Shown here: piece after piece, positions 17,772-64,000 of the stretch
Layout: every line of letters begins with the position of its first letter
How positions within the stretch are numbered: position 1 is the stretch's first letter
Assembly: GCA_963971305.1 (NCBI GenBank)
Contig: OZ020306.1
Location: forward strand, 4,890,842-4,954,841
Source: Arcuatula senhousia
Taxonomy: Eukaryota > Mollusca > Bivalvia > Mytilida > Mytilidae
Reading direction: 5' to 3'
Length of the DNA stretch: 64,000 nt
Notes under the pieces: model-generated
Databases searched by the model: none
Told to the model about the DNA's origin: nothing
The model's input: the letters and a program-made list of their open reading frames with translations, nothing else
Translations under genes and position numbers: made by a program

Positions 17772-19440
17772 TGAGCATAATAATAATTACCACATTTTTA
17801 TAGCGCCCTTCTCAAAAATAAAATGTTCAAAGGCGCTTTACAATGAGATCATAAACAATTACAATGATTTTAAAAAGATGATAAAAACATGAAAATACGA
17901 ATAACACATATATTACATTTGTAATATAAACTACCCCATTATGAATCTTAAAATCTAAAACTCAGTCAACTATAGATAAAAATTAAAATATGTGCATAAA
18001 GGATAATTTAAAAAGTCTCGAAAATAAGTTTTAAAGAGAGTTTAAAACTATTAAAAAAAATAATAAGTAAAAAATAAAAAATAAAATAAAAACTACTTAG
18101 ATCTTAAACTTTGATAAAACATTGAAATACAGCACAACAATTCACATTGACAAGCACAGCACAGTTAGTTACTATAAATTTTCAAGAAAAAATGCGTTTT
18201 TAAAGATTTCTTGAACACTTCTACTGTTTTTGAGTCTCTGATGCTATCTGGAAGGTCATTCCACAGTTTTGGTGCCACTGAAGAGAAACTGCGTTCACCA
18301 TATCTTACAGTCCTACTTTTTGGAACAACAAGTTGCTTTGAAGAGTTCTTTGATCTTAAGTTTCTTGTTGGTTGATATAGTTCCAGTAAATGTTTTAGGT
18401 AAATTGGTGACTGGTCATGTAGAGCTTTGTAAGTTTGTACAAGGATCTTAAAGTTCACTCGGTGAATCACAGGAATCCAGTGTAGGTCCTTTAATACTGG
18501 AGTTATATGTTCAAATCTAGATGATCTTGTGATGATGCGGGCAGCTGTGTTTTGAAGATGCTGCAGTTTATTCAATGTTGTTTTTGGTACACCATATAAG
18601 AGTGCATTACAATAGTCCATGCGTGAGGTGACTAAAGAATTCACTAAAGATTTTGTTGCATCTGTATTCAAGTACTTCCTTATATGACCAATCTGGCGTA
18701 GTTGTCCATAACAAGATCTGCAAACGGAGTTTATGTGCTTTTCCATGGTCATGTTGTTGTCTAGTACAGCACCAAGATTTCTTACATTACTTGATGGTTT
18801 TATACTTTCCTCTCCGATAGTCACAGTTATTGTCTCAACATGCTTTTGGTTTCTCTGAGATGTAAATATCATTACTTCAGTCTTGTCAGCATTGATTTTT
18901 AACATATTATTGTTCATCCATGACACTATTTCAGCGAGACAGTTTTGAACTCGATCTAAAGAGTCATTCTTTGAAACTGGGCACGTCGGTTTAAAGGAAA
19001 GGTAAAGCTGTCCATCGTCTGCATAATAATGGTAATCCAATCCATGTTTCTTACATATTGCACCAACAGGTTTAGTGTACATAGTAAAGAACTTAGGTCC
19101 TAGAACGGATCCTTGAGGCACGCTATAGCTCAATTTGACTGGGTTTGAGAGGTCACCATTTATTGTAACAGTCTGATGTCGATCAAATAGATATGAACGT
19201 ATCCATTCCAACGGTTTTCCAGATATACCAAAGTTGGTGTTTAGACGCATAAGTAGTGTAGTGTGGTCGATTGTATCAAATGCGGCTGATAAGTCCAGCA
19301 TAACTAACATGGTAACATCATTGTTGTCTAGAGAATTCAATATATCATTTTGAACTTTTATAAGTGCTGTTTCAGTTGAATGAAATTTTCTATAATTATG
19401 AATTCTTTTTGTATGAACTCTGGCCTTGGCTAGTGTTTGA
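17772..19440 (-). mobile_element. 5'-truncated CR1/L2-type non-LTR retrotransposon
   Basis: The minus strand carries the C-terminal part of a reverse transcriptase (see the coding entry), followed by a ~390-bp 3' region ending near 17772 with GCGCTATAAAAATGTGG and a short ATT-repeat tail (AATTATTATTATG), the kind of tail seen in CR1-like elements. The 5' end is lost: upstream of the first Met the frame stays open to about 19440 (RKFHSTETALIKVQNDIL is retrotransposon-like), and beyond this similarity stops. No target duplication was resolved. Confidence 0.85.
18165..19340 (-). CDS. Reverse transcriptase fragment of the non-LTR element
   Basis: A 391-codon uninterrupted frame. The palm motifs are in order: LDLSAAFDTIDHTTLL (motif A, catalytic Asp), VPQGSVLGP (motif B), YYADDGQLYL (motif C, the YADD pair), then KTEVMIF. 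The C-terminal segment with LKDLHWIPVIHRVNFKIL and TYKALHDQSPIYL is the post-RT domain typical of CR1/L2/Rex-type LINE elements. The endonuclease and N-terminal RT are missing because of 5' truncation, so the fragment cannot transpose alone. The first Met is internal; coding similarity extends upstream. The absence of stops suggests a fairly recent insertion. Confidence 0.9.
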   Translation of the reverse strand: MNSLDNNDVTMLVMLDLSAAFDTIDHTTLLMRLNTNFGISGKPLEWIRSYLFDRHQTVTINGDLSNPVKLSYSVPQGSVLGPKFFTMYTKPVGAICKKHGLDYHYYADDGQLYLSFKPTCPVSKNDSLDRVQNCLAEIVSWMNNNMLKINADKTEVMIFTSQRNQKHVETITVTIGEESIKPSSNVRNLGAVLDNNMTMEKHINSVCRSCYGQLRQIGHIRKYLNTDATKSLVNSLVTSRMDYCNALLYGVPKTTLNKLQHLQNTAARIITRSSRFEHITPVLKDLHWIPVIHRVNFKILVQTYKALHDQSPIYLKHLLELYQPTRNLRSKNSSKQLVVPKSRTVRYGERSFSSVAPKLWNDLPDSIRDSKTVEVFKKSLKTHFFLKIYSN

Positions 19441-19489
19441 GGGATGCAATTTCATTATTTTCATAATTGAACATGCATGTCTATAATAC

Positions 19490-20292: not shown

Positions 20293-20300
20293 TTGATACA

Positions 20301-20312
20301 ATGAAAGAATAA
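20301..20312 (+). promoter_or_regulatory. Minimal upstream ORF before the GT31 start
   Basis: ATG AAA GAA TAA lies 8 bases after the acceptor and ends two bases before the main ATG. Such an upstream frame could lower translation or require reinitiation. Confidence 0.4.
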
Positions 20313-20314
20313 GA

Positions 20315-21346
20315 ATGAGGAGATCTTTACAAAACACTGTTCGGTGTTTCAATAAAAAGTTACCGCTTGTCGTCTTGGTCGTCTGCATCTTAGCAATAAT
20401 CTCCATGGGAATCGACCGCCGGGACAGTGACCGGTCGGTATACACGACGTCGTCGACAGCTGTAAATGTATCAGGAACTACTCCTCTTGAGTCCTCGACC
20501 TTAAAAGAAATCTCAGTGCAAGCATTTACTGAAACACCAGTTGATATGAGCCAAACTAAGCATAATCAGTACCAACATCCTTTTAGGTACATATACTCGT
20601 CGACACGATGCACACAGCACAACCAAGGGCCATTCCTGCTTATTCTTGTCAAATCCAATGTGAAAAATTTGGACAATAGAATGGCGATTCGAAGTACTTG
20701 GGGAAATATATCCGACTCTAACATAGGTCTTGTATTCCTGCTTGGAAACTACCCGTTGTTAAAGGACTCTATCAGACAAGAGAATTCAATCTACGGTGAC
20801 ATCGTACAGGAGGACTTCATTGACCACTATAATAACAACACATTGAAGACAATCATGGGATTTACATGGTCCGTAAATAACTGTAAAAATACATCTTATT
20901 TCTTCTTCGTTGACGATGACTATCTTGTAAACATTCGCTTACTGTTAAAGGAACTCCATAAACGTAAACCTGGGAATGTATTCTGGGGATGTGTTTGGAA
21001 GGGGGCAAAACCCAACAGGGACAAACGTAGTAAATGGTACATCTCAAGGAAGGAATATCCACATAAATTCTGGCCGCCTTATGCCACCGGTGGCTCGATA
21101 GTTATAACACGGGATTATGCCACGAGAATGATAGAAAGTTTCAAACATATAAAACCACTTTTTATAGATGATGTGTATTTAGGAATTGTAGCTAAACATT
21201 TAGGTATACCTCTAACGAACGATTGCCGATTCCATCCTTATTATAGCTTTAAACATGTCAGAGATATGTTCTCTATTCATCACTTTGAATCTCCTACAAA
21301 ACTGTTAATTGACTGGGAATCAGTAAAAGAGGACATCAAAGGCTAA
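20315..21346 (+). CDS. Beta-1,3-galactosyltransferase-like enzyme (GT31 family)
   Basis: Complete 343-residue type II membrane protein. Residues 16-31 (LPLVVLVVCILAIISM) form the signal anchor, followed by a Thr/Ser-rich stem to about residue 90 and the luminal catalytic domain. GT31 hallmarks are in order: RMAIRSTWG (122-130), EDFIDHYNNNTLKT (166-179), the metal-binding FVDDDYLV (198-205), PPYATGGSIVIT (254-265) and IDDVYLGI (284-291, for the usual EDVYVG). N-glycosylation sites are at Asn51, 131, 174/175 and 192. The family transfers Gal or GlcNAc from a UDP-sugar in beta-1,3 linkage in the Golgi; which sugar and acceptor cannot be told from sequence. Length matches the family. The coding region is a single exon, with a three-codon upstream frame just before it. 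No other genes cluster with it. Confidence 0.9.
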   Translation: MRRSLQNTVRCFNKKLPLVVLVVCILAIISMGIDRRDSDRSVYTTSSTAVNVSGTTPLESSTLKEISVQAFTETPVDMSQTKHNQYQHPFRYIYSSTRCTQHNQGPFLLILVKSNVKNLDNRMAIRSTWGNISDSNIGLVFLLGNYPLLKDSIRQENSIYGDIVQEDFIDHYNNNTLKTIMGFTWSVNNCKNTSYFFFVDDDYLVNIRLLLKELHKRKPGNVFWGCVWKGAKPNRDKRSKWYISRKEYPHKFWPPYATGGSIVITRDYATRMIESFKHIKPLFIDDVYLGIVAKHLGIPLTNDCRFHPYYSFKHVRDMFSIHHFESPTKLLIDWESVKEDIKG

Positions 21347-31900: not shown

Positions 31901-34900
31901 CCATTAAGAACGCCATAACAAGCATTAAAACCATTATCGAGTTTTCATTCAAATCATACATAAATAAATCAAACAATTTAAATTATTAAATAAAATATAT
32001 AATTGAACACTTCAACACGTTATACAATACTGAGCTTCTTCCCTGTGAAATATAAATATTTACACTCGTTGTGATTGTGGAGAGAGAAACGTACAAAAAC
32101 ATCCTCACAGACACACAAACAGTCTATAGTATAACAGAAAGAATGGTCATTATAAAACGTCGTAATCCTATTATTTGACATTATATATTTAAATGATTAT
32201 AGAAGTTTGAACACTGATTTAGACGGTGACCATAGAGATTCGACACTAGGAGAAGAATTAGACGCTTCAGTGCAGCTCGTGTAAAGTTTGAACTTAAAGT
32301 CCTTATAAGATGGCTCATCTAGAAAAGTACCTTATTTCTAACCATAAATGTTAATGTATCTCTATCAAAAAAGTGTTATTGTCGTATCAATAAGACACCT
32401 AGATTTTAAAAAAGACATAAAACATCGGGATCTAATGAAAATAAAAGCAAGGATTTTTTCTTCAGATCTTCGATCTACCAACAACAGTTCGTAAATATAT
32501 TAAAACTTTGTATGAAATTGAAAGCCGTGCTCATGATACATGTTATAATTGTTTCCCAGCACCGTTGTGATGAATATAAATGTTTTCCCAGCACCCATGC
32601 TTAATTGTAGGTTGAGTGAATACATGTATATGTGTTTTCCCGCGCCAGTATAAGACTTTTTCCAACCACCCATACTAAATTCTAGGTGTGATTCATTTCC
32701 ACCCCATCAGAGGCTTACATGAAGACTTCTCTATAGTCTGTACTATCAGATTCGCCCTCTGAATTATATAGGTCTATGATGATATCACACGCGGAAACAA
32801 CGTCTATTTTCATTTTCTGAAATAATTTAGAAGTGTCAATATGCTATATCCTTCCAGCGAAGCACTTGGTTTTACTGGTTTCCTGTTTATTGTTGATATT
32901 AAGATATTATTTTTAATCATTGAAAAATGTATGCTTCTGGGACCGGCACACTTGGCAAATAGTTTTCACACTGACATTGGATTGTGGATGTTTTGTCTCG
33001 ATTATATTGTGGTTAATGCGTCGGGCTACTAATTTTAAAACCAAGGCTCGTGCTTCAAAGACCACACTCGCAAACTGGAGACAGCTTGTTTCTCAATCCA
33101 GGGTAAATTAAAAACAAGAGGCTCCCAGGAGCCTGAATCGCTCACCTGGTCTTGATGTTGACCCTATACTTTTGTAGAGCTAAATGAGCTGAACATTTAA
33201 GCAAGCAACAGCTAATCTCTATCTGCAATAGTTTTCATTCTGTAGGCCAAAAACATGAAAAATCGCCTTATCAGAGGCCGTAACCCCTATAAGGGGTCAC
33301 CTGACAACTTCCACCCTATGGAAAATTTTGTAGAGCTAAATGAGCTGAACATTTAAGCAAGCAACAGCTAATCTCTATCTGCAATAGTTTTCATTCTGTA
33401 GGCCAAAAACATGAAAAATCGCTATTTTTCAGGGGTCGTAACCCCTATAAGGGGTCATCTGACAACTTCGACCCTATGTAGAATTTTGTAAAGCTAAATG
33501 AGCTGAACATTTAAGCAAGCAACAGCTAATCTCTATCTGCAATAGTTTTCAATCTGTAGGCCAAAAACATGAAAAATCGCTATTTTTCAGGGGCCGTAAT
33601 CCCTATAAGGGGTCATCTGACAACTTCGACCCTATGGAGAATTTTGTAGAGCTAAATGAGCTGAACATATAAGCAAGCAACAGCTAATCTGTATGTGCAA
33701 CAGTTTTCATTCTGTAGGCCAAAAACATGAAAAAAAACTACTTTTCAGGGGCGTACCCCTATAAGGGGTCATCTGACAACTTCGACCCTATGGAGAATTT
33801 TGTAGAGCTAAATGAGCTGAACATTTAAGCAAGCAACAGCTAATCTCTATCTGCAATATTTTTCATTTTGTAGGATAAAAACATGAAAAATCGCTATTTT
33901 TCAGGGGCCGTAATCCCTATAAGGGGTCATCTGACAACTTCGACCCTATGGAGAATTTTGTAGAGCTAAATGAGCTGAACATATAAGCAAGCAACAGCTA
34001 ATCTGTATGTGCAACAGTTTTCATTCTGTAGGCCAAAAACATGAAAAAAAAGCTACTTTTCAGGGGCCGTAACCCCTATAAGGGGTCATCTGACAACTTC
34101 GACCCTATGGAGAATTTTGTAGAGCTAAATGAGCTGAACATTTAAGCAAGCAACAGCTAATCTCTATCTGCAATATTTTTCATTTTGTAGGATAAAAACA
34201 TGAAAAATCGCTATTTTTCAGGGGCCGTTATCCCTATAAGGGGTCATCTGACAACTTCGACCCTATGGAGGATTTTGTAAAGCTAATTGAGCTGAACATT
34301 TAAGCAAGCAACAGCTAATCTTTATCTGCAATAGTTTTCATTCTGTAGGCCAAAAACATGAAAAATCGCTAATTTTCAGGGGCCGTAACCCCTTTAAGGG
34401 GTCATCTGACAACTTCGACCCTATGGAAAATTTTATAGAGTTAAATGTGCTGAACATTTAAGCAAGCAACAGCTAATCTCTATCTGCAATAGTCTTTATT
34501 CTGTAGGCCAAAAACATGAAAAATCGCTATTTTTCAGGGGCCGTAACCCCTATAAGGGGTCATCTGACAACTTCGACCCTATGGAAAATTTTATAGAGTT
34601 AAATGAGCTGAACATTTAAGCAAGCAACAGCTAATCTCTATCTGCAATAGTTTTCATTCTGTAGGCCAAAAACATGAAAAAATGCTATTTTTCACCTTCA
34701 AGGGGCCGTAACCCCTATAAGGGGTCATCTGACAACTTTGATCAAATGGAGACTTTTGCAGAGCTTTTGATGCTGAATCAGTAGCGTGGCCTCAGATTTC
34801 CTTTATCTCTTATACTTTTTGATTTATAAGCCAAAAACAGTAGTCTGACCCCCCCCCCCTAGTCTATTTTTAGTAACAGCGAATTTTTAACGGATCAAAA

Positions 34901-54570: not shown

Positions 54571-54574
54571 TGGG

Positions 54575-55325
54575 TAAACATCCAAACCCCTCCGTTCAGG
54601 TAGCCCATTTAACCTTGGATATACATCCAGACCCCTCCATCCAAGAAGCCCATTTAACCATGGATATACTTCCAAACCCCTCTGTCCAGCTAGCGCATTT
54701 AACCATGGGTATACATCTAGACCCTTCCATCTAAGTAACCCATTTAACCTTGGATATACATCCAGACCCTTCCGTCCAAGTAGCCTATTTAACCTTGGGT
54801 ATACATCCAGACCCCTCCATACAAGTAGCCCATTTAACCTAAGGTATACATCCAAACCCCTCCATCCAAGAAGCCCATTTAACCATGGATATACATCCAA
54901 ACCCTTCCATCCAAGAAGCTCATTTAACATTGGGTAAACATCCATACCCCTCCATTCAAGTAGCCCATTTAACCTAAGGTATACATCCAAACCCCTCCAT
55001 CCAAGAAGCCCATTTAACCATGGATATACATCCAAAACCCTCCGTCCAGGTAGCGCATTTAACCATGGGTATACATCTAGACCCCTCCATCCAAGTAATC
55101 CATTTAACCTTGGATATACATCCAGATCCCTCCATCCATGTAGCCCATTTAACCTAAGGTATACATTCAAACCCCTCCATCCAAGTAGCCCATTTAACCT
55201 TGGGTTTACATCCAGACTCCTACATCCAAATAGTTAATTTAACCTTGGGTATAGTTCTAGACCCCTCCATCCAAGTCGCAAATTTAACCTTTGGTATACA
55301 TCCAGGCATTCCATCCAAGTAGCTC
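54575..55325 (+). repeat. 45-bp satellite array, about 16-17 units
   Basis: Unit CCATTTAACCTTGGATATAC + ATCCAGACCCCTCCATCC + AAGTAGC. Variant units recur in order: the TAGCGCATTTAACCATGGGT unit appears at 54691 and 55051, exactly 360 bp (eight units) apart, so blocks were duplicated. Because 45 is divisible by three, the minus strand is open for 201 codons as LDVYPWLNGLLGWRG repeats; this is regarded as a consequence of the period. Confidence 0.93.
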
Positions 55326-55339
55326 TATGGGCAAAGCGT

Positions 55340-57545
55340 CCCGACTCGTCATCAGGTACTGACCTATAACTTTAACTGACAAGATTAGAGCTGTTGCGAC
55401 CGAGACACACTTTAACCGACAAGAATAAAGCTGCTGCAGCCTAGATACACTTTAACCGACAAGACAAGAGCTGCTGCAGCCGAACCCACTTTAACCGACA
55501 CGAATAGAGCTGCTGCAGCCGAGACCCACTTTAACCGACACGAATAGAGCTGCTGCAGCCGAGACCCACTTTATTCGACAAGATTAGAGCTGCTGCAGCC
55601 GAGACCCACTTTAACTGACAAGATTATAGCTGCAGCAGTCAATACACCACTTTTACCGACAGGGTTAGAGCTGCTGCAGCAGAGACCCACTTTAACCGAC
55701 AAGATTAGAACTGTTGCAGCAGAAACCCACTTTAACCGACAAGATTATAGCTGCAGCAGCCAATACACCACTTTTACCGACAAGATTAGAGCTGCAGCAG
55801 CCAATACACCACTTTTACCGACAAGATTAGAGCTGATGCAGCAGAGACCAACTTTAACCGACAAAATTAGAACTGCTGCTACAAGATTAGAGCTACCGCA
55901 GCCGAGACCAACTTTATCCCGACAAGCTTAGAGCTACTGCAACTAAGACCCACCTTTAACGACAAGATAAGAGCTGCTGCAGCCGAGGCCCACTTTAATC
56001 TACAAGATTAGAGCTGTTACAGTCTAGACCCACCTTTACCGACAAGATTAGAACTGCCTCAGCCAAAATCAACTTTAACTGACAAAATTAGAGCTGCTGC
56101 AGCGGAACCCGCTTTATACGACAAGATTAGAACTGCTGTAGCAGAAACCTACTTTAACCCCTCTATCCAAATAGTTAATTTCACATTTGGTATAGTTCTA
56201 GATCCCTCAATCCAAGTCGCAAATTTAACCTTTTGTATACATCCAGGCATTCCATCCAAGTAGCTCTATGGGCAAAGCGTCCCGACTCGTCACCAGGTAC
56301 TGATCTATAACTTTAACTGACAAGATTAGAGCTGTTGCAGCCGAGACCCACTTCAACGACAAGAATAAAGCTGCTGCAGCCTAGATACACTTTAACCGAC
56401 AAGACAAGAGCTGCTGCAGCCGAACCCACTTTAACCGACAAGATTAGAGCTGCTGCAGACGGGATCAACTTAAACCGACAAGAGTAGAGCTGCTGGAGCC
56501 TAGAAACATTTAAACCGACAAGACAAGAGCTGCTGCAGCCGAACCCACTTCAACCGACAAGATAAGAACTGCAGCAGCCGAACCCACTTTAACCCGACAA
56601 AATTAGAGCTGCTGCAGCCGAACCCACTTCAACCGACAAGATAAGAGCTGCTGCAGCCGAGACCCACTTTAACCGACAAGATTAGAACTGCTGCAGTCGA
56701 ACCCACTTTATTCGACAAGATTAGAGCTGTTGCAGCCGAGACCCACTTTATCCCGACAAGAATAGAGCTGCTGCTGCTGAGATCAACTTTAACCGACAAG
56801 ATTATAGCTGTTGCATCCGAGAGACCCACTTTAATCTACAAGATTAGAGCTGCTACAGTTTAGACCCACTTTAACTGACAAGATTAGAACTGCTGCAGAC
56901 GGGACAAACTTTAACCAACAAGATTAGAGTTGCTGCAGCGGAACCCACTTTATACGACAAGATTAGAACTGCTGCAGCAGAAACCTATTTTAACCCAACA
57001 AGATTAGAACTTCTGCAGCAGAAACCTACTTTAACCCGACATGATTAGAGCTGCTGCAGCAGAAACCTATTTTAACCCGACAAGATTAGAACTTCTGCAG
57101 CAGAAACCTACTTTAACCCGACATGATAAGAACTGCTGCAGCCGAACTCACTTTAACCGACAAGATTAGAGTTGTTGCAGCCGAGAACCACTTTAACCGA
57201 CAAGATAAGAGCTGCTGCAGCCGAACCCACTTTAACCGACAAGATAAGAACTGCTGCAGCCGAACCCACTTTAACCGACAAGATTAGAGCTGTTGCAGCC
57301 GAGAACCACTTTAACCGACAAGAATAAAGCTGCTGCAGCCGAACCCACTTTAACCGACAAGATTAGAACTGCTGCAGCAGAAACCTACTTTAACCCGACA
57401 TGATAAGAACTGCTGCAGCCGAACTCACTTTAACCGACAAGATTAGAGCTGTTGCAGCCGAGAACCGCCCTTACCATCAAGATAAGAGCTGCTACTGCCG
57501 AACCCACATTAACCGACAAGATTAGAACTGCTGCAGTCGAGAATC
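55340..57545 (+). repeat. 40-bp satellite array (CTGCAGC-rich), about 50 units
   Basis: Unit ACTTTAACCGACAAGATTAG + AGCTGCTGCAGCCGAGACCC. Almost every unit has the palindromic GCTGCAGC (PstI site). The array is broken at 56155-56330 by a second copy of the array junction. Variants with AGCAGAAACCTACTTTAACCC form sub-blocks near 56950-57120. Confidence 0.95.
56155..56440 (+). repeat. Second copy of the 45-bp/40-bp array junction (941-bp duplication)
   Basis: The sequence from CCCTCAATCCAAGTCGCAAA through TAGCTCTATGGGCAAAGCGT to the first 40-bp units repeats that at 55261-55480. The marker TAGCTCTATGGG lies at 55320 and 56261, an offset of 941 bp. Confidence 0.9.
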
Positions 57546-62556: not shown

Positions 62557-62668
62557 ATGCGTTCCGTGTTAAGATTTTTAACGATATCTTTGGCTGTTAG
62601 TGTGGTGTTTGGTTGTTCATGTTTACCGCCTGTTCACCACCAGGAAGACTTCTGCCGGTCAGATTATG
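62557..62668 (+). CDS. TIMP: TIMP (tissue inhibitor of metalloproteinases), N-terminal exon
   Basis: An acceptor TTTTATTTTCAG ends at 62547, nine untranslated bases follow, then ATG at 62557. It encodes a 19-residue signal peptide (hydrophobic core LRFLTISLAVSVVF, cleavage after Gly19) and the mature N-terminus CSCLPPVHHQEDFCRSDY. The C-x-C start, with Cys at mature position 1, is the wedge that chelates the catalytic zinc of metalloproteinases in this family; the following HHQ..FC..D pattern matches the TIMP consensus. Donor TTATG|GTAATA at 62669 leaves one base, and joining to the acceptor at 63229 gives YVIHGQVLES, the expected VIRGKV-like strand. The frame also runs on into the intron. 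The protein is secreted. The rest of the gene lies beyond the window. Confidence 0.9.
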
Positions 62669-62674
62669 GTAATA

Positions 62675-63215
62675 AATTGAAAATTATAATTTTCATTTTC
62701 AGGTTTGTCAATCTGACTTTCAACCTTTTCTATGTTGCTTTCTTTATTGGTCTTCATGCAAATACAAAATAAGATGGTTGGGTGGAATTGTCTCCCTTGG
62801 TACGCAATTGGTGAAACCTTGGACTAAACTTGTTATTCTTAACTTGGTTGTTTGGTACTACCGAAAAGGGCAAATATCTACTTCATTAAACTTGTTTAAC
62901 TTAAACTAATTGGCACGACCCCTCTCAATCGATTCATGAATTGGACAATTACCCTTGTACCTTCGTTCAATTTGACTACTCATATTGTGTTTTTATCAGA
63001 GTATCTGTGAACATCATTTCATGATTCTGTTAATTAAGTTTTATTCGATTCGTTAGTGATGTTGTATAAAGTATAAAGTATTTCATTCAGTCAATTATGG
63101 GCCCGTTAGGGCAAATATGAATTTTGACATATGTGTATACAATGAATAATATCAAACAACTTTTACTCACACTTTCTCTCTTTCACTTTCGTACTACGAG
63201 CCCTTGAATGATTCT
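62675..63215 (+). other. TIMP gene intron
   Basis: AT-rich intron between the signal-peptide exon and the repeated exon 2 start. No other exon seen. Confidence 0.7.
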
Positions 63216-64000
63216 CTTTTACTTTTCAGTGATTCATGGCCAGGTTTTAGAGAGTAACGCCCCGGTCACTGTTCCACCAGAACTGTTTAATACAATCAGA
63301 ACGTTTACTTTTCAGTGATTCATGGCCAGGTTTTAGAGAGTAACGCCTCGGTCACTGTTCCACCAGAACTGTTTAATACAATCAGAACGTTTACTTTTCA
63401 GTGATTCATGGCCAGGTTTTAGAGAGAAACGCCCCGGTCACTGTTCCACCAGAACTGTTTAATACAATCAGAACTTATACTTTTCAGTGATTCATGGCCA
63501 GGTTTTTAGAGAGTAACGCCCCGGTCACTGTTCCACCAGAACTGTTTAATACAATCAGAACTTTTACTTTTCAGTGATTCATGGCCAGGTTTAAGATAGT
63601 AACGCCCCGGTCACTGTTCCACCGAAACTGCTTAATACAATCAGAACTTATACTTTTCAGTGATTCATGGCCAGGTTTAAGATAGTAACGCCCCGGTCAC
63701 TGTTCCACCAGAACTGTTTAATACAATCAGAACTTATACTTTTCAGTGATTCATGGCCAGGTTTAAGATAGTAAGCCCCGGTCACTGTTCCACCAGAACT
63801 GTTTAATACAATCAGAACTTTTACTTTTCAGTGATTCATGGCCAGGTTTTAGAGAGAAACGCCCCGGTCACTGTTCCACCAGAACTGTTTAATACAATCA
63901 GACCTTATACTTTTCAGTGATTCATGGCCAGGTTTTAGAGAGTAACGCCCCGGTCACTGTTCCACCAGAACTGTTTAATACAATCAGAACTTTTACTTTT
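63216..64000 (+). repeat. TIMP: 86-bp tandem array of TIMP exon-2 acceptor and coding start
   Basis: Nine units begin (first exon base) at 63230, 63316, 63402, 63488, 63575, 63661, 63747, 63832 and 63918; the acceptor of a tenth is cut by the window edge. Every unit has TTTACTTTTCAG or TATACTTTTCAG as a strong acceptor, then TGATTCATGGCCAGG. In phase with the first exon each reads VIHGQVLESNAPVTVPPELF, then NTIRT; reading on through the next acceptor gives FQ-stop. Units 1, 2, 3, 8 and 9 are open; unit 4 has an extra T (frameshift); units 5-7 have an in-frame TAA (GTTTAAGAT), and unit 7 also lacks one base. No donor is found in the unit, so a productive transcript must use the last acceptor, probably beyond the edge. 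Confidence 0.93.
63230..63313 (+). CDS. TIMP: TIMP exon 2 start, first tandem copy
   Basis: It completes the Val codon left open at 62668 and encodes VIHGQVLESNAPVTVPPE then LFNTIRT, matching the second strand and loop of the TIMP inhibitory domain. If spliced here, translation stops at the TGA at 63315-63317 in the next unit, so this copy is probably a non-productive alternative start of exon 2. Confidence 0.5.

Follow-up and report, generated by a model that had tools for sequence, protein, structure and literature searches.

The window analysed here is a stretch of 64,000 nucleotides from the mytilid bivalve Arcuatula senhousia (G000:C4:4890842-4954841). It was extended with 40 kb of the contig from C4:4953000 onward, 38.2 kb of which lies beyond the window, and positions past either window end are given in window numbering carried on (window-continued). 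A TIMP gene begins near the right end of the window on the + strand. The coding part of exon 1 (62557..62668) encodes a signal peptide, judged by eye, followed by the N-terminal CSC...C (CSC at residues 20-22), and ends in phase 1 at the donor ATG|GTAATA; intron 1 (62669..63229) runs to the first, native acceptor at 63229/63230. The other exons lie in the extension on the same strand: exon 3 at 64653-64758, exon 4 at 65180-65301 and exon 5 at 65771-65956 (window-continued; borders set by eye and then checked). Between exons 1 and 3 the start of exon 2 is repeated in tandem. With the last repeat unit (unit 12) taken as the start of exon 2, the five exons, all bordered by GT/AG, measure 112, 110, 106, 122 and 186 nt; their coding sum of 636 nt is divisible by three. 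The sole in-frame stop before the end of this frame is codon 55, located in unit 12; exons 1 and 3-5 are open.

The identity of the gene as a TIMP, proposed in the initial annotation, was confirmed by the Pfam TIMP profile PF00965: exon 1 joined to one unit scored 30.5 bits (cut-off 23.1), and the complete read-through, with X at the stop, scored 100.3 bits against the same cut-off, residues 20-190 covering profile positions 3-183 of 183. A search of the protein collection (E <= 0.001, 68 candidates) returned two hits, the 'metalloproteinase inhibitor 4-like' proteins of Mytilus edulis and M. californianus, with identities of 50 and 49% in the search alignment and 51 and 50% in a three-row alignment. 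In the latter alignment 14 of 14 cysteines are invariant, and the exon 2 tail and the exon 2/3 junction align free of gaps with both Mytilus proteins. A 65-residue piece padded with X gave no candidate in the protein search; the same piece found 16 weak matches among PDB sequences, 15 of them vertebrate TIMPs (best E 0.15).

Tandem Repeats Finder placed an array at 63216-64000 of the window (period 86, 9.1 copies, 95% matches, score 1421) and at 63216-64245, window-continued, of the extended stretch (12.0 copies, 96% matches). The whole array (G000:C4:4954057-4955086, + strand) comprises 12 units, nine of them in the window, the ninth (63918..64000) being cut by the window end. A scan of the window found nine CAG|TGATTCATGG acceptors, so that the nine tandem acceptors with an 86-bp period initially described were recovered there, and the extended contig raised their number to 12. 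The exon parts of units 1-9 start at 63230, 63316, 63402, 63488, 63575, 63661, 63747, 63832 and 63918 (spacings of 86, 86, 86, 87, 86, 86, 85 and 86), and those of units 10-12 at 64004, 64090 and 64176 (window-continued). The extension also located the final unit and the exon end: unit 12 alone is joined to the remainder of exon 2, running unbroken into ...NTIRSIIYKVKVIEVFK up to the exon end at 64285, which is followed by the donor GTAAGT at 64286.

Every unit consists of 14 intronic bases (CTTTTACTTTTCAG and variants) followed by 70 bases of exon 2. The repeat unit was thus correctly described as carrying the acceptor of exon 2 together with the beginning of that exon, of which it holds 70 bases in place of the approximately 75 first estimated. 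A 2-nt filler stands at each of the 11 inner junctions (AA in ten, AC in one). At the left edge of the array the intron reads ...GATTCT|CTTTTAC, the inner junctions read ...ATCAG|AA|CTTTTAC or variants, and at the right edge the exon continues as ATCAG|GAGTATC, indicating that the duplicated segment is 84 bp, with the 2-nt filler added at each inner junction. Both ends of the array pass into non-repeat sequence, intron on one side and exon on the other, and comparison of the borders with the intron and the native exon showed that the repeat spans the exon-intron boundary, the units holding sequence of both kinds. We also considered the inner junctions as native exon codons, with RTYTF as a TIMP strand; this was rejected, the native exon continuing as NTIRSIIYKVKV on the extended contig.

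Splicing of exon 1 to acceptors 1 to 12 would give products of 66, 66, 66, 46, 43, 43, 43, 66, 66, 66, 66 and 54 residues, respectively, before a stop. From unit 1 (exon part 63230..63315) the 66-residue frame closes at the TGA of unit 2 (63316-63318). The 87-nt exon part of unit 4 (63488..63574) carries a +1 frameshift that leads to an early stop; units 5-7 (63575..63831) each have an in-frame TAA after VIHGQV, and the exon part of unit 7 is 85 nt long owing to a 1-nt deletion that sits after its stop. Apart from this deletion, these lesions, and the open frames of units 1-3 and 8-9 up to the TGA of the following unit, are those reported in the initial annotation. Its more general statement, that each unit runs into the TGA of the next, applies to units 1-3 and 8-11; units 4-7 stop earlier. 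The expectation that the last acceptor alone would give the full-length inhibitor fails in the assembly: unit 12 (exon part 64176-64245, window-continued) contains an in-frame TAA at 64226-64228, and because no other unit is joined to the remainder of exon 2, all 12 acceptors lead to a premature stop. None of the 12 therefore provides an intact frame able to make the inhibitor. Each of the 12 stops is followed by 57-967 nt of exon 2 and by three further exons, and mRNAs with a premature stop upstream of further exon junctions are, by the usual rule, targets of decay.

The acceptor AG is intact in 12 of 12 units, although lesions lie within five of the units themselves (4-7 and 12). The impression that acceptors were preserved while coding parts broke down did not exceed chance: with the filler columns excluded, 12 columns vary among the 12 units, namely 2 of the 14 tract columns and 10 of the 71 coding columns (Fisher p = 1.0). 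Invariant stretches extended to at most 25 columns (shuffle P = 0.14 for 12 units; P = 0.12 for the nine window units, with one false variable column included). As the contrast between tract and coding part is not significant, the apparent preservation is not evidence of selection on splicing, and a test for selection on the acceptor tract was not significant with nine or with 12 units.

The distribution of variants gives some indication of the history of the array. Units 1 and 10 do not differ in sequence, one lesion is common to units 5-7, and the 87-nt and 85-nt lengths occur once each. The two substitutions that create the stop of unit 12 are private to that unit, indicating that the array is probably older than this stop. 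Within alignment columns 64-66, paired substitutions occur in both unit 5 and unit 12, but the pairs differ. The same variants bear on the possibility of an assembly artefact, in which collapse or stutter of the repeat would have given a wrong consensus for the copy number or for the unit 12 stop. Tandem arrays commonly hold such errors; however, simple stutter would yield identical copies rather than 12 variable columns with shared and private variants, the change in unit 12 consists of two substitutions and not of a homopolymer indel, and both array edges run into non-repeat intron and exon sequence. We consider an artefact unlikely.

Splice-site strength was estimated with crude weight matrices built from approximate metazoan frequencies, taking the + strand of window positions 30-62000 as background. 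The unit 1 acceptor, at the 98.4th percentile of 3337 AG sites, was the strongest of the 12 and the one most distant from the exon end, those of units 2-12 falling between the 86.5 and 93.3 percentiles; the native acceptors of exons 3, 4 and 5 reached 98.7, 92.4 and 87.8. The exon 1 donor lay at the 88.8th percentile of GT sites, at the lower end of the range of the gene's own donors (88.8-100). Unit 1 is the only one with native intron upstream; in the other units the 14 intronic bases follow exon sequence and filler. Scores and upstream context together suggest that the inner acceptors may be usable and predict that unit 1, which is non-productive, dominates.

These values are relevant to the proposal in the initial annotation that acceptor choice acts as a rheostat between productive mRNA and nonsense-mediated decay. 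On this view transcripts would be shared between the last acceptor, the productive one, and its competitors, which lead to decay; the TIMP dose would depend on array length, and the stop of unit 12 would be either erroneous or a rare allele. The intact AG of all 12 acceptors, the scores of units 2-12, which are comparable to those of native exons 4 and 5, and the open state of the remaining gene are consistent with this; moreover, since the changes of unit 12 are private, the array probably once had an open last unit, and such arrays may persist. Against it, the strongest acceptor is a non-productive one and the acceptor tracts lack excess conservation. Such a switch needs a productive acceptor beside the decay-bound ones, and the assembled haplotype has none, 12 of 12 leading to premature stops, so that the proposal is unsupported here and would need another haplotype lacking the unit 12 stop. 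We regard it as improbable.

We also searched for splicing routes that avoid the stops. When all AG sites between 62700 and 64283 were used as single acceptors, three kept the frame open, all located behind the unit 12 stop; they scored at the 27.5, 33.9 and 4.5 percentiles and would lose most of exon 2. In two-step splicing that started at one of the 12 acceptors and yielded 200 residues or more, 32 combinations were in frame, all with weak sites. The seven best share the donor TTCA|GTGATT (70th percentile of 3284 GT sites) and the acceptor ATCAG|GAG at 64246 (80.6th percentile) and give 216 residues. Chains of cassettes from unit to unit can be dismissed by reasoning, as their final splice would also have to land beyond the stop of unit 12.

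The seven best combinations would amount to a new intron: exon 1 spliced to an open unit (1, 2, 3, 8, 9, 10 or 11), followed by a second splice from TTCA|GTGATT to ATCAG|GAG, producing a 216-residue TIMP in which about five residues are inserted into a variable stretch. That stretch differs by one or two gaps among the three aligned proteins, which permits an insert but lends it no support, and the donor, at the 70th percentile, falls short of the 88.8-100 of the gene's own donors, the acceptor lying at the 80.6th percentile. A precedent comes from potato, where, according to the part of the source available, tandem duplication of the segment where the first intron meets the second exon of an RdRp gene (PGSC0003DMG402000361) gave rise to a new intron documented by 106 RNA-Seq reads (PMC4974935). 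The duplicated segment is of the same kind as in the TIMP array, taking in the last part of intron 1, its acceptor included, and the first part of exon 2; however, the potato gene has a single duplication (two copies) with a cryptic GTAAG donor, whereas the TIMP array has 12 copies and is known from DNA alone (PMC4974935, as far as the accessible text describes it). The two-step scan of the TIMP array found no donor comparable to GTAAG in a productive frame. We hold a new intron as the route to a working inhibitor to be very unlikely.

The truncated product itself might be a working short peptide, and 7 of the 11 non-last units (1-3 and 8-11) do yield nearly the same 66-residue chain (47 residues past the signal peptide). 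Such a chain would retain three of the 14 cysteines (C20, C22 and C33), however, and an mRNA with exon junctions downstream of its stop should, by the general rule, be degraded. In vertebrate TIMPs the disulphide partners of the counterparts of C20, C22 and C33 lie further on. We find a functional peptide scarcely credible.

With every assembled copy leading to a stop, a recently broken gene copy is likelier than a device for the control of splicing. In the explanation that we favour, and hold to be probable, a minisatellite across the intron 1/exon 2 boundary has made this haplotype a recent null allele or pseudogene, a product of tandem-repeat turnover and not a regulatory device. A five-exon TIMP gene would have undergone a tandem duplication across that boundary (84 bp plus the 2-nt filler, of the kind that end joining can leave), and the duplication would then have grown to a 12-unit minisatellite through unequal exchange or slippage. 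Each unit would thereby have come to carry its own short 3' splice site and, from the second unit on, a TGA in the frame of the preceding one. Transcripts would mostly be spliced to the native acceptor of unit 1, the strongest, terminate after 66 codons and enter nonsense-mediated decay, and it is from this sequence of events that we infer a null allele or young pseudogene in the assembled haplotype. In line with such a loss, all 12 acceptors stop early when used with the usual exons 1 and 3-5, and the single acceptors that keep the frame are the three poor ones behind the stop. The 32 weak two-step splices that also keep a frame, and the intact AG of all 12 acceptors, count against it.

In exons 1 and 3-5 the locus looks like a working gene, their frames being open, their borders GT/AG and every cysteine retained. 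A recent loss fits this state, as would a functional gene in which the stop of unit 12 is allelic or an error of the consensus sequence. It follows from these exons that the loss, if fixed, is recent, or that open haplotypes persist. In a more speculative variant, to which we give little credence, the array could be a length-variable splicing sink in a living gene, haplotypes with an open last unit having a ladder of acceptors that lead to decay, so that TIMP dose falls with copy number, and the assembled haplotype would be the end point, in which either the last unit has been lost as well or the stop is skipped by a nascent intron extending over units 2-12. Should an open haplotype exist, it would offer a natural titration of how many competing acceptors one gene tolerates. 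If instead the favoured reading of a recent null is correct, the locus is a clear snapshot of tandem-repeat turnover breaking a gene at a splice border, in which one can still read the native edges on left and right and, between them, inner copies whose lesions are partly shared and partly private.

Repeats of this kind have been described in other genes. In human segmental-duplication genes, variable internal tandem repeats at exon-intron boundaries accounted for 27 intron modifications, with copy-number variation for some and altered splicing, according to the part of the report available (PMC2812944). As in the TIMP array, minisatellites there expanded across exon-intron borders; the human repeats, however, average 30 bp repeated 4 times, compared with 86 bp and 12 copies here, and they belong to young paralogues, nearly all with RNA support, whereas the TIMP gene has no close copy that we found at the DNA level and its array was characterised from genomic sequence only (PMC2812944, same part). 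Multiply duplicated 24-bp AGGT segments are described for fission yeast genes in the accessible text of the potato study (PMC4974935); these resemble the TIMP array in having several tandem exonic copies with splice-site potential inside a gene, but the AGGT segment is exonic and the intron spans the duplicates, as judged from expressed sequence tags (PMC4974935). Among molluscan TIMPs, five exons were reported for 132 of 142 sequences, the number also found here, and tandem duplication of genes was reported in Pteriomorphia; that expansion duplicated whole genes, in contrast to the part of one exon with its acceptor duplicated here, and the available portion of the study mentions no such array (PMC10755359). 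In the open-licence literature searched we found no report of a tandem acceptor array in a TIMP gene. The array is a new instance, longer than the cited human averages and apparently destructive in its effect, of a known kind of boundary repeat.

Searches of the 1.04-Gb assembly (1803 contigs) at the DNA level returned two rows for the array, both inside the array itself, and thus no array elsewhere. A further search gave 11 units of the array, the gene they belong to and 41 matches that fall in a repeat of intron 3, and no second gene copy or unplaced haplotype contig was found (40 of 558 candidates scored). The intron 3 repeat, of about 98 bp (64901-64998, window-continued), is dispersed, with at least 41 other matches on many chromosomes at 79-89% identity. 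Using tblastn, no alternative exon 2 was detected in introns 1 or 2, and searches with the gene's own protein and two Mytilus proteins found no other TIMP gene in the surrounding 302 kb (C4:4790842-5092999, window-continued -99999 to 202158).

This neighbourhood is rich in tandem repeats. The 302 kb contain 26 distinct arrays, the TIMP array included (period of at least 20, at least 5 copies, score of at least 300), and under looser settings (period of at least 10, at least 3 copies, score of at least 150) 12.5% of the sequence lies in tandem arrays. Judging from this one neighbourhood, such a density would lead one to expect an array to catch an exon edge now and then. Comparison of 16 arrays revealed related arrays with units of 155-158 bp at 33170-34765, -42322, 131274 and 157275 (window-continued; 83-92% identity) and others with units of 180-183 bp at -64483, 118295 and 168553 (window-continued; 78-89% identity); both are dispersed satellite families, perhaps carried by mobile elements. 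A 39-bp unit is repeated about 200 times at 89587-97299 (window-continued), and within the window adjoining arrays of 45-bp and 40-bp units (16.8, 12.7 and 30.9 copies) occupy 54571-57542, the 45-bp array having open frames on both strands. Elsewhere in the window, a 428-residue open frame at 18165-19451 (- strand) resembles, by eye, a LINE-type reverse transcriptase, and a single-frame beta-1,3-galactosyltransferase-like gene lies at 20297-21346 (+ strand), its closest named hit being from Mytilus galloprovincialis (58%).
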